IMG/VR virus record: IMGVR_UViG_3300002144_000408
Location: 1 to 21,069 of that record
Source of the DNA: a virus
DNA length: 21,069 bases
Strand: one strand, 5' to 3'
Shown: piece by piece, positions 13,410 to 18,681 of the stretch
Numbering within the stretch: position 1 is the stretch's first letter
Layout of the letters: each line of letters begins with the position of its first letter
Made by a program: the position numbers and the translations under genes
Notes under the pieces: model-generated
What the model was told of the DNA's origin: nothing
The model's input: the letters and a program-made list of their open reading frames with translations, nothing else
Databases searched by the model: none

Positions 13410-13673
13410 TTAATAGTCCTCACTCATTTTCAATTGGCACTCCTTTACGAAGTGATAAAAAGTACCGATATACCGATCATCCTCAAATATTTGAGGTAAT
13501 ACATTTGTACTTACATTCAATTCTTTCAGTTTATTATAATATAAAGTGAGTCCAATGTCAAGGAATGTATACTCACCATACATATCATTTGCTGTCTTCT
13601 TTGCCTTATCACAAAACTGACAGCCTTTTGTACCATAGATGTAGATCACTTCTTCGGAGTGTTCTCTTTCCAA
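13410..13673 (-). CDS. Glutaredoxin (intact copy of a duplicated gene)
   Basis: The 87-aa protein is a full glutaredoxin: YIYGTKGCQFCDKAKK holds the dithiol active site Cys18/Cys21, VLPQIFEDDRYIG the cis-Pro loop and following strand, and a C-terminal helix completes the fold. Glutaredoxins reduce disulfides, including the C-terminal pair of class I ribonucleotide reductase, and some carry Fe-S clusters. The first 42 codons lie in the duplicated block, so an almost identical N-terminal half occurs at 14225-14100 fused to another gene. Promoter P7 is embedded in codons around residues 38-47. It overlaps the 105-aa gene upstream by 28 bases. Confidence 0.88.
   Translation of the reverse strand: MEREHSEEVIYIYGTKGCQFCDKAKKTANDMYGEYTFLDIGLTLYYNKLKELNVSTNVLPQIFEDDRYIGTFYHFVKECQLKMSEDY
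13533..13561 (-). promoter_or_regulatory. Perfect sigma70-type promoter P7 inside the glutaredoxin gene
   Basis: TTGACA at 13561-13556 and TATAAT at 13538-13533, minus strand, spacer 17. The -35 is made from the last bases of the duplicated block and the -10 from unique sequence. The matching site in the other repeat copy keeps TTGACA but has no TATAAT, so only this copy forms a promoter. The next gene start is glyA. Confidence 0.8.
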
Positions 13674-14099
13674 TTGTTAATGTAATCAAGCTGTTTAGCC
13701 TGGGACCACTCTTCCGCTAACAGTTCGTTATCTTCTTTGAATAATCGTAGTACTTTTTCTGTATCAGCAAAATCGACGTTAGTAACTGTTTCACCTAACC
13801 ATCTTTGAGAGAACTCTTTTACTTCTTCTGATTCCACAAATTCCTGGGCAAATTGCCTTGCAAGCTTATCTGGTATCCGATCCTCGTGAAGGCCTTCGCG
13901 AGGTATAATGTATCTCTGTTTGAATACTGAAATTGTATCTACTATTACATAATCACCTTTCATCTTTCACTCCCTTAATTAGTTTACGCTCAGATATTGG
14001 TTGTCCAAATTCACGAGCAAAAACTGTTTTGCCTTTATCAGGACTTTCGTAAATATACTTTTTCTTTTCTTCACTAATTTTAATATCTTTTGTCATTAT
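13549..14099. repeat. Tandem direct repeat, copy 1 (period 552)
   Basis: This block repeats directly at 14101-14651 with only four base differences, at 13554, 13567, 13839 and 13898. It covers the 3' part of the chimeric ORF, the whole 105-aa gene and the first half of the glutaredoxin gene. Two differences are silent and two change an amino acid (Thr/Lys, Phe/Ser). Outside the borders the identity stops abruptly. Confidence 0.97.
13646..13963 (-). CDS. Duplicated 105-aa phage hypothetical protein, copy 1
   Basis: The product starts MKGDYVIVDTISVFKQRYIIP, a beta-hairpin, then has charged helices with VKEFSQRWLGETVTNV and a Glu/Lys-rich end. It resembles small phage proteins with a strand-rich start and helical tail, but I assign no function. 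It differs from copy 2 by one residue, Phe in place of Ser near residue 42. Its start overlaps the chimeric ORF by 11 bases and its end overlaps the glutaredoxin by 28, the same arrangement as in the presumed ancestral operon. Confidence 0.75.
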   Translation of the reverse strand: MKGDYVIVDTISVFKQRYIIPREGLHEDRIPDKLARQFAQEFVESEEVKEFSQRWLGETVTNVDFADTEKVLRLFKEDNELLAEEWSQAKQLDYINNWKENTPKK

Positions 14100-14225
14100 T
14101 AGTCCGATGTCAAGGAATTTATACTCACCATACATATCATTTGCTGTCTTCTTTGCCTTATCACAAAACTGACAGCCTTTTGTACCATAGATGTAGATCA
14201 CTTCTTCGGAGTGTTCTCTTTCCAA
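13953..14225 (-). pseudogene. Chimeric ORF: truncated glutaredoxin fused in frame to the 47-aa gene
   Basis: The first 42 residues repeat the glutaredoxin N-terminus, including the CQFC active site, up to FLDIGL. One junction codon follows, then the complete 47-aa protein MTKDIKISEEKKKYIYE... The cis-Pro half of glutaredoxin is missing, so the thioredoxin fold cannot complete and redox activity is unlikely. The fusion is exactly what a 552-base tandem duplication would make at its junction. The 47-aa part may still be made alone: its own ATG at 14096 has GGA six bases upstream. Whether to call this a pseudogene or a new fusion gene depends on expression. Confidence 0.8.
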
Positions 14226-14515
14226 TTGTTAATGTAATCAAGCTGTTTAGCCTGGGACCACTCTTCCGCTAACAGTTCGTTATCTTCTTTGAATAATCGT
14301 AGTACTTTTTCTGTATCAGCAAAATCGACGTTAGTAACTGTTTCACCTAACCATCTTTGAGAGAACTCTTTTACTTCTTCTGATTCCACAGATTCCTGGG
14401 CAAATTGCCTTGCAAGCTTATCTGGTATCCGATCCTCGTGAAGGCCTTCACGAGGTATAATGTATCTCTGTTTGAATACTGAAATTGTATCTACTATTAC
14501 ATAATCACCTTTCAT
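14198..14515 (-). CDS. Duplicated 105-aa phage hypothetical protein, copy 2
   Basis: This copy is identical to the one at 13646-13963 except for Ser instead of Phe near residue 42. It overlaps the 47-aa gene before it by 11 bases and the chimeric ORF after it by 28 bases. All its start signals are kept, so both copies should be translated, which would double the dose. Confidence 0.75.
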   Translation of the reverse strand: MKGDYVIVDTISVFKQRYIIPREGLHEDRIPDKLARQFAQESVESEEVKEFSQRWLGETVTNVDFADTEKVLRLFKEDNELLAEEWSQAKQLDYINNWKENTPKK

Positions 14516-14648
14516 CTTTCACTCCCTTAATTAGTTTACGCTCAGATATTGGTTGTCCAAATTCACGAGCAAAAACTGTTTTGCCTTTATCAGGACTTTC
14601 GTAAATATACTTTTTCTTTTCTTCACTAATTTTAATATCTTTTGTCAT
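14505..14648 (-). CDS. 47-aa phage protein (KGKTVFAREFG motif), intact copy
   Basis: An ATG at 14648 with AGG seven bases upstream opens MTKDIKISEEKKKYIYESPD, followed by KGKTVFAREFG and a basic tail. The YESPDKGKTV-x-x-R-x-FG pattern is one I associate with tiny proteins of T4-like phages. The function is unknown. It overlaps the preceding 92-aa gene by 17 bases and the 105-aa gene by 11. An identical sequence is the C-terminal half of the chimeric ORF. Confidence 0.7.
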   Translation of the reverse strand: MTKDIKISEEKKKYIYESPDKGKTVFAREFGQPISERKLIKGVKDER

Positions 14649-14910
14649 TATATAACCTACGAACAATTTTGTTTACAATATAGTCTGCTTCTGGATATTC
14701 ATCCATCATATCAACAACGTTATCAATAATATCTAAATTTTCGAGCATTTCATTTCGTCTTTCCAACCATGCAAGTTGTTCACGGTGTTGCTCAAGATGC
14801 TCTATATAATGTAGATCATGTAACTTTTTAATTAATGCATTCATACGTAACCACTTGTGGTAGTCAATATCGCCGTCTTCGTTAAAAGGGTTATCTTTAT
14901 GATCGTCCAT
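14632..14910 (-). CDS. Helical 92-aa hypothetical protein
   Basis: This protein begins MDDHKDNPFNEDGDIDYHKW and is mostly predicted helix, with a possible coiled coil around LHYIEHLEQHREQLAWLERRNEML. It is soluble and charged, with no catalytic motif. It starts eight bases after the YbaN-like gene and overlaps the 47-aa gene, so it is part of the operon. No family is recognised. Confidence 0.6.
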   Translation of the reverse strand: MDDHKDNPFNEDGDIDYHKWLRMNALIKKLHDLHYIEHLEQHREQLAWLERRNEMLENLDIIDNVVDMMDEYPEADYIVNKIVRRLYNDKRY

Positions 14911-17433: not shown

Positions 17434-18681
17434 TTAGCTTGCGTAGGCATCGTCCCAAGTTCCTTCTAAACCAGCAACCTCATATTCGGTTACACGATTT
17501 TCGAAGAAGTTTGTATGGTCTGCTCCATTGAGCACCCATTCTAACCAAGGTAATGGATTATCTTTTACCTTGAAGTTCGGTTTCATGCCTAACTGTAATA
17601 ATCTTCTATCCGTTATATATTTTATATATTCTTTTACTTCGGATTTTTCCAGTCCTTCAATAGATCCCAGTGCGTAGGCAAGATCAATAAACTTATCTTC
17701 TAGGTCTACAATATCTTTCGACATTTCATAGATTTCTTTTTTGAACTCATCGTCAACAACACGACTATGTTCTTTCACAAACGCTTTAAACAATTTAGAG
17801 TTACCTTCAACGTGAATTGATTCATCACGAATACTCCATTCTACTACTTTACCCATACCTTTCATTTTACCGAAACGTTGAAAGTTCAATAGCATAACGA
17901 AAGAAGCAAACAATGCAACACCTTCGTTAAATACAGATTTGGCTAAAGATAGACCTAAACCGCGTAAAGTATTTGTATCTGCTTTACGCATATATTCAAT
18001 CTTGTCTGCCATTTCAGAATAATCTAAAAACGCGTGGTATTCACTATCAGGCAAACCTAAGGTCTCATTCAATAGAGCATATGCACGTTGATGAATACCT
18101 TCTCTTGCGGCAAACGATCCTAACATATTACGGATTTCGTTATTCTTAAACTTTGGAATAAACTGATCGTAATAGTTCTGTCCTACAGCAACATCAGACT
18201 GAGTAAACAACCTTAGGATGTTTGTAATATAATCTTTCTCAACTTTGCCAATCTTACCACCTTTCCAATCAGACACATCTTCAGATAAATCCAATTCATC
18301 TTCAATCCAGTGCGCTTTCTCGTGTCTTGTCGTAATCTCAACAGCCCAAGGGTAATGAAATGGTTTATAAGTTTCTGAAAACTCTAAAAGACCACCTTGC
18401 TTTTTAATTAATGTATTAGAGATTGTCATTAGGTCGTTATACGTACCTATATGTTTGTCATCAATAAAGATTTGCGGTAATGATCTTACTTCTTTGCCGT
18501 TTGACATCCTTTGATAGAATGAGAGACGTTGTTCTTCGTCATCTAATACTACCTGCGTGTAACCAAACCCATGTTGTGTAAACCATGCCTTTGCCTTTTC
18601 ACAAAAAGGGCAATTTGATTTGGTATAAATTAATACTTCCATTTTCTTTCCTGTCTTACTGGTGGGTATTGCGCCAACCAT
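17434..18681 (-). CDS. nrdB: Class I ribonucleotide reductase small subunit fused to N-terminal glutaredoxin
   Basis: Residues 14-95 are a glutaredoxin domain: MEVLIYTKSNCPFCEKAKAW with Cys24/Cys27 and LPQIFIDDKHIGTY. The rest is a class I NrdB with diiron ligands Asp163 (FTQSDV), Glu194/His197 (REGIHQRAY), Glu253 (NEGVALF) and Glu287/His290 (RDESIHVEG), and the radical tyrosine at Tyr201 in the E. coli Tyr122 position. The C-terminal tail ends WDDAYAS, the segment that docks on NrdA. Fusing the reductant to the radical subunit gives NrdA its own thiol supply. Two starts are possible: 18681 with AAGGA, or 18642 (MEVLIY) with AGGA; the latter gives a tidier domain start. nrdA is 21 bases upstream. 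Confidence 0.93.
   Translation of the reverse strand: MVGAIPTSKTGKKMEVLIYTKSNCPFCEKAKAWFTQHGFGYTQVVLDDEEQRLSFYQRMSNGKEVRSLPQIFIDDKHIGTYNDLMTISNTLIKKQGGLLEFSETYKPFHYPWAVEITTRHEKAHWIEDELDLSEDVSDWKGGKIGKVEKDYITNILRLFTQSDVAVGQNYYDQFIPKFKNNEIRNMLGSFAAREGIHQRAYALLNETLGLPDSEYHAFLDYSEMADKIEYMRKADTNTLRGLGLSLAKSVFNEGVALFASFVMLLNFQRFGKMKGMGKVVEWSIRDESIHVEGNSKLFKAFVKEHSRVVDDEFKKEIYEMSKDIVDLEDKFIDLAYALGSIEGLEKSEVKEYIKYITDRRLLQLGMKPNFKVKDNPLPWLEWVLNGADHTNFFENRVTEYEVAGLEGTWDDAYAS

Follow-up and report, generated by a model that had tools for sequence, protein, structure and literature searches.

The direct repeat found in the 21,069-base virus record IMGVR_UViG_3300002144_000408 is probably, if by a modest measure, a natural, lineage-specific tandem duplication of 552 bp that arose by illegitimate recombination, with four differences between its copies that came later or already existed. 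The record, whose ends are classed as 'linear' by IMG/VR, was analysed in its entirety and is called the window here. Whole-window self-comparison returned this direct repeat alone, 14101-14651 against 13549-14099, spanning 551 bases at 99.27% identity with a period of 552. The two copies are adjacent and head-to-tail with one novel junction between them, as befits a tandem segmental duplication, and 547 of their 551 bases are identical, an agreement that cannot be reached by chance. Tandem Repeats Finder accepts periods of up to 500 and therefore does not see the repeat. A sequence-only reading had already described it, and the coordinates, period, number of differences and two amino-acid changes given there all agreed with the self-comparison and with a base-by-base comparison of the copies. 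Beyond that reading, the unit was found to hold two whole genes and part of a third, namely the 47-aa and 105-aa genes in full and a glutaredoxin gene up to codon 34 (minus strand), and its doubling has created an in-frame fusion ORF. The anatomy, the single copy in relatives, the polarity of the differences, the junction and the cut through a promoter are observed; we infer that two copies really stand in the DNA molecule, how they were joined, and that the duplication is largely unselected and transient. The repeat looks like an ordinary duplication, such as phages are already known to undergo, and most likely captures a spontaneous segmental duplication at a passing moment, without a selected role.

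All genes of the surrounding cassette lie on the minus strand, in the 5' to 3' order DUF454, 92-aa, 47-aa copy B, 105-aa copy B, fusion ORF, 105-aa copy A, glutaredoxin and glyA, with the following features:

15335-14919, minus strand: DUF454 protein (Pfam E 2.3e-27)
14910-14632, minus strand: 92-aa protein
14101-14651, minus strand: repeat copy B, the upstream one on the coding strand, with the ancestral base at three of the four differing sites and a derived one at 14106
14505-14648, minus strand: 47-aa gene, copy B, with its ATG at 14648 and an overlap with the end of the 92-aa gene
14198-14515, minus strand: 105-aa protein gene, copy B, with ancestral Ser42
14434-14455, no strand: perfect 22-nt palindrome in the 105-aa gene of copy B (in copy A 13882-13903, with one mismatch)
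14108-14113, minus strand: promoter remnant in copy B, the -35 hexamer TTGACA only (best downstream partner AAAGAT, 9/12 overall)
14100-14101, no strand: duplication junction, on the coding strand GACATCGGACT / A / ATAATGAC, with 0-2 nt of homology, compared with the nearest relative, L006
13953-14201, minus strand: 82-aa fusion ORF that the junction creates, read from the sequence
13549-14099, minus strand: repeat copy A, the downstream one on the coding strand, with derived bases at 13567, 13839 and probably 13898
13646-13963, minus strand: 105-aa protein gene, copy A, with derived Phe42
13410-13649, minus strand: intact glutaredoxin, 79 aa from GTG, with derived Thr28 (Pfam PF00462, PDB 1ego)
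13533-13561, minus strand: perfect sigma-70-type promoter TTGACA-17-TATAAT inside the glutaredoxin gene, upstream of glyA
13404-12244, minus strand: glyA (SHMT E 1.8e-150)

The junction, in a wider view of the coding strand, reads ...CTTGACATCGGACT-A-ATAATGACAAAAG..., and its parents are GGACTCAC in the glutaredoxin gene and GGTTATATAATGAC at the start of the 47-aa gene. Judged against the window's own flanks, the join has 0 nt of homology and one extra A; the homology becomes 2 nt if the ancestor had the bases of L006 at both sites (GGACTAAC, GGTTAAATAATG). Such a join, at 0-2 nt, lacks the several base pairs of homology that mark microhomology amplification of the T4 type. The junction sequence occurs in no other viral contig scanned, a set that perhaps did not cover records very near the window, and the join is therefore taken to be new. 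Mechanistically, codon 34 of the glutaredoxin gene would have been joined illegitimately, with next to no homology, to the start of the upstream 47-aa gene, whether through a template jump or end joining in replication or through unequal exchange between two co-infecting strain variants. The 47-aa and 105-aa genes would thereby have been doubled, with one intact glutaredoxin gene left downstream, a fusion ORF made and the glyA promoter kept single, and the four differences would be later mutations or pre-existing strain differences.

Relatives were found by scanning viral contigs with three proteins (105-aa, glutaredoxin and 92-aa) and an alignment of the 105-aa protein, which together gave 117 loci on 81 distinct contigs, the alignment scan contributing the best 80 of its 110 matches. 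Among the matches listed, each of the 117 loci has exactly one 105-aa gene (cut by the contig end in L020), and none of them shows a direct repeat of at least 60 nt at E 1e-5 near that gene. The comparison of copy number that the sequence-only reading had proposed thus gave one copy in each of the 81 other contigs among the matches listed and two in none, so that one copy is the ancestral state and the two copies of the window are derived. The order DUF454, 92-aa, 47-aa-like, 105-aa, (glutaredoxin), (glyA) is retained in the nearer relatives. The nearest, L006 (a contig common to L012, L026 and L056), has a 105-aa protein 82% identical by full alignment and DNA 88-92% identical to the window on both sides of the 105-aa gene; at these values, the relatives compared include no genome of the same species. 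By NrdA, the closest isolate is Methylophilales phage Melnitz (70.9%), a Kyanoviridae phage that infects marine OM43 bacteria, according to the account in PMC9004378, and the phage of the window, a marine one, is probably Kyanoviridae-like (T4-type).

The four differences (plus strand, copy A / copy B) are 13554 A / 14106 G, 13567 G / 14119 T, 13839 A / 14391 G and 13898 G / 14450 A. On the coding strand, 13567 changes Lys28 to Thr in the glutaredoxin and 13839 changes Ser42 to Phe in the 105-aa protein, and those at 13554 and 13898 are silent. Their polarity was read from 15 aligned relatives, two of which (L001 and L003) are without glutaredoxin and so unreadable at 13554 and 13567. At 13567 the coding strand has A in all 13 readable relatives, making the C of copy A (Thr28) derived; at 13554 it has T in 12 of 13 (C in L021), making the C of copy B derived; and at 13839 it has C in 14 of 15 (G in L005), making the T of copy A (Phe42) derived. 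Position 13898 is more varied, with T in 9 of 15 including the nearest, A in four, G in one and C in L034, and the C of copy A is probably derived there. Judged against the relatives, three new changes thus fall in copy A and one in copy B, a distribution that fits both mutation after duplication and the joining of two strain haplotypes.

The sequence-only reading had called this a very recent tandem duplication. Its derived and lineage-specific nature is borne out by the single copy in the 81 other contigs, and the point differences it cited exist; the age itself is less secure, in that 0.7% (four changes in 551 bp) is much for a phage if all arose after duplication, and the changes may instead be strain differences that existed beforehand. 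At phage mutation rates, four differences imply many replications. A near-perfect repeat of 551 bp should collapse by recombination, yet its copies have lasted long enough to differ at four sites, which is hard to square with either 'very young' or 'neutral'. The tension would be eased if each copy derived from a strain of its own, if the loss of short duplications is slow, if selection acted, or if the repeat is a product of assembly. Duplications of 2.6-3.3 kb in Pseudomonas aeruginosa, as described in PMC12607827, disappear only slowly and may last for many generations in the absence of selection.

The last of these readings, in which one copy present in two strain variants, together with a chimeric junction from a library chimera, a whole-genome amplification chimera or a minority molecule, led the assembler to walk the segment twice, is rather unlikely and still deserves weight. 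The caveat of the sequence-only reading concerning an artefact stands, for the stretches identical between the copies, 271 nt (13568-13838) and 201 nt (13899-14099), exceed the usual short-read k-mers. Common k-mer sizes and read lengths are shorter than 201-271 nt, and the right-hand alleles were therefore placed by paired reads at best. A divergence of 0.7% also matches that typical of co-occurring strains, and the duplication is in none of the other 81 contigs among the matches listed. Against this, the junction bases were found in no other scanned viral contig and are nothing that strain variants could yield by simply overlapping; an assembler makes no join without junction reads, and some molecule must presumably have supplied them. 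Moreover, the join is not inverted, as the commonest amplification chimera is, and two of the four differences lie within 20 nt of the junction or flank and would be phased on single reads. Natural duplication is favoured because of the anatomy of the repeat, the single copy in relatives, the derived alleles on both copies and the new join. Gene conversion, keeping the copies of an old duplication alike, might explain the two long identical tracts and the clustering of the differences in two small groups, but it is highly improbable, given that the duplication is in no relative among the matches listed, including L006 at 82% protein and 88-92% DNA identity.

Selection for the amplification itself, with extra 47-aa and/or 105-aa protein being of help and the Phe42 copy diverging to a new role, is a doubtful alternative. 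Several features would suit it, in that two small genes lie whole within the unit while the neighbours are spared, the 105-aa gene bears a window-specific patch and, in one of its copies, another amino-acid change, the repeat has persisted long enough for four differences, and T4 amplifies tifA against toxIN in the account of PMC9391042. Against it, no relative among the matches listed has the duplication, there are only two copies, and family, sequence and structure searches returned no function for either small protein. For the 105-aa protein, no Pfam family passed the cut-off, PHROG had no match to the window protein, and neither a PDB sequence relative at E < 0.05 nor a phage record by tblastn turned up; its AlphaFold model is middling (pLDDT 75.9) and has no Foldseek match at E <= 0.001 in PDB or BFVD. 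In bacterial genomes, 23 stretches matched a pattern, and none of them encodes a relative. The 47-aa protein has a conserved core, IYESPDKGKTV, and weak tblastn matches to cyanophage hypothetical proteins. Selection on dose, which the sequence-only reading had tied to the 105-aa protein, might have a part, and the 47-aa gene is doubled as much as the 105-aa gene.

The promoters also argue against selection, as the extra genes gain none. Seven perfect TTGACA-16/17-TATAAT sites occur in the window against 0.044 expected, all on the coding strand (at 13561, 10488, 9895, 8766, 6134, 4060 and 2540, minus strand, most beginning TTGACATT), and by this excess they are very likely promoters. The left breakpoint of the duplication falls within the 17-nt spacer of the site at 13561-13533, so that this strong promoter, inside the glutaredoxin gene and upstream of glyA, was not duplicated and stays single. 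The -35 hexamer in copy B has lost its -10, leaving the second gene set without a promoter gained, and a new promoter created by the join was ruled out, the best -10 being AAAGAT. A promoter-like site of 10/12 at 14675-14647 was set aside, its class being no commoner than in shuffles. Among the 32 loci with a glutaredoxin match in L042-L078, the glutaredoxin-internal promoter is perfect in 19, scores 11/12 in L065 and scores 8 or 9 in the other 12; two of these 12 (L049 and L060) have glyA adjoining glutaredoxin, and the other ten (L069-L078) have no glyA directly after it, the contig of L075 ending soon after.

The intact glutaredoxin matches Pfam PF00462 (E 2.6e-05, 24.8 bits against a cut-off of 22.9) and the PDB glutaredoxin 1ego (E 3e-07). 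A CxxC active site and a cis-Pro region are the defining marks of a glutaredoxin; C10, C13 and P52 are invariant in the alignment, and the intact copy bears these marks. The fusion ORF comprises glutaredoxin residues 1-34, one Ile and the whole 47-aa protein (with its own ATG at 14096), and measures 82 aa from GTG, or 90 aa in the ORF list, counted from an upstream TTG. Its truncated glutaredoxin keeps the CQFC motif and has no residues past 34, and so neither the cis-Pro region nor the invariant P52-Q53, and the alignment with relatives shows conserved residues after position 34. At 16.8 bits for PF00462, under the cut-off of 22.9, the truncated form does not qualify as a glutaredoxin, and with everything past residue 34 gone it is unlikely to yield a working enzyme. 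A second glutaredoxin-like stretch, with a CPFC motif visible in the translation, lies at the N-terminus of NrdB (17434-18681).

Older changes are recorded in the same cassette. L006 reads CGTGAAG, 33 nt and CAGATAAG, whereas both copies in the window read CGTGAAG, 21 nt and CAGATAAG, a radical, window-specific change at about residues 24-31 of the 105-aa protein; the patch segment is in none of the 80 other proteins of the 105-aa type compared, among the matches listed. Its new bases complete the 22-nt palindrome CCTCGTGAAGG/CCTTCACGAGG, the left arm of which is nearly all ancestral, and the patch is, by the look of its sequence, a likely template-switch scar, with a tail that template switching leaves unexplained. 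The palindrome was found in no other contig scanned, records very near the window perhaps not being covered. Its hairpin folds at -9.4 kcal/mol (z -4.6) in copy B and more weakly in copy A (-5.3, z -1.75). An equal or longer palindrome arose in 4 of 300 simulated windows, a window-wide test that is modest taken alone, and a chance origin is disfavoured mainly since the right arm sits exactly in the patch that differs from relatives. Being present in both copies, the palindrome is older than the duplication. An elaborate 'accordion' in which a 105-aa anti-host protein was reshaped by template switching and duplicated, its Phe42 copy now diverging under selection and the fusion being expressed, is very improbable. 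Template switching yields multi-residue changes without selection, as PMC8604942 describes, a point against the selective reading of the duplication.

The window and L006 have a yet older deletion in common, which at a GAAG repeat took out a small membrane-protein-like ORF, roughly 61 aa long in L002, that is present upstream of the 105-aa gene in L002, L007 and L014, and the first residues of the 47-aa protein (14648-14505) therefore stem from the lost ORF. In L006 (3440-3640), glyA was lost by a different join, its first codons being fused in frame to the next gene, a relative of the window's 200-aa protein. The gap between the 92-aa and 105-aa genes ranges from 115 to 597 nt among relatives, and a glutaredoxin match between the 105-aa gene and glyA is missing in 5 of the 33 loci L042-L074 (L042 and L044-L047), so that the 105-aa gene also occurs without glutaredoxin. 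The 92-aa to glyA cassette is a fast-changing accessory spot where small rearrangements recur, and against this background the duplication surprises less.

Natural duplication is further favoured by these other indels and by precedent in T4, whose tandem amplifications and deletions arise at short homologies in the account of PMC9391042. The segmental amplification of T4 dmd-tifA described there (Srikant et al. 2022, PMC9391042) likewise repeats a short stretch carrying small genes head-to-tail, through recombination inside the phage's own genome, and those genomes also undergo deletions. The T4 joins have 6-10 bp of microhomology and the read depth rises about tenfold, whereas the join in the window, at 0-2 nt, is shorter than is typical, a point against the natural view; selection by toxIN was proven in T4, and the window has two diverged copies known from an assembled contig alone. 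The T4 gene 16-18 (Hp17) amplifications and rII-region recombination (via PMC9391042) also produced tandem copies through short sequences, but under laboratory selection and at homologies of 2-10 bp. The Pseudomonas aeruginosa duplications make persistence without selection conceivable for short tandem duplications such as this one, although they are 2.6 kb or longer, engineered and on a bacterial chromosome (PMC12607827).

Tandem duplications in wild phages are rarely caught because they collapse. Should the repeat prove an artefact, it would serve as a useful caution on strain mixtures. As a duplication, it gives an order of events, from template-switch patch to duplication to point changes, and points to the 92-aa to glyA cassette as a place where gain, loss and fusion recur; a diverged duplication preserved in a contig in this way marks where a phage genome is plastic.
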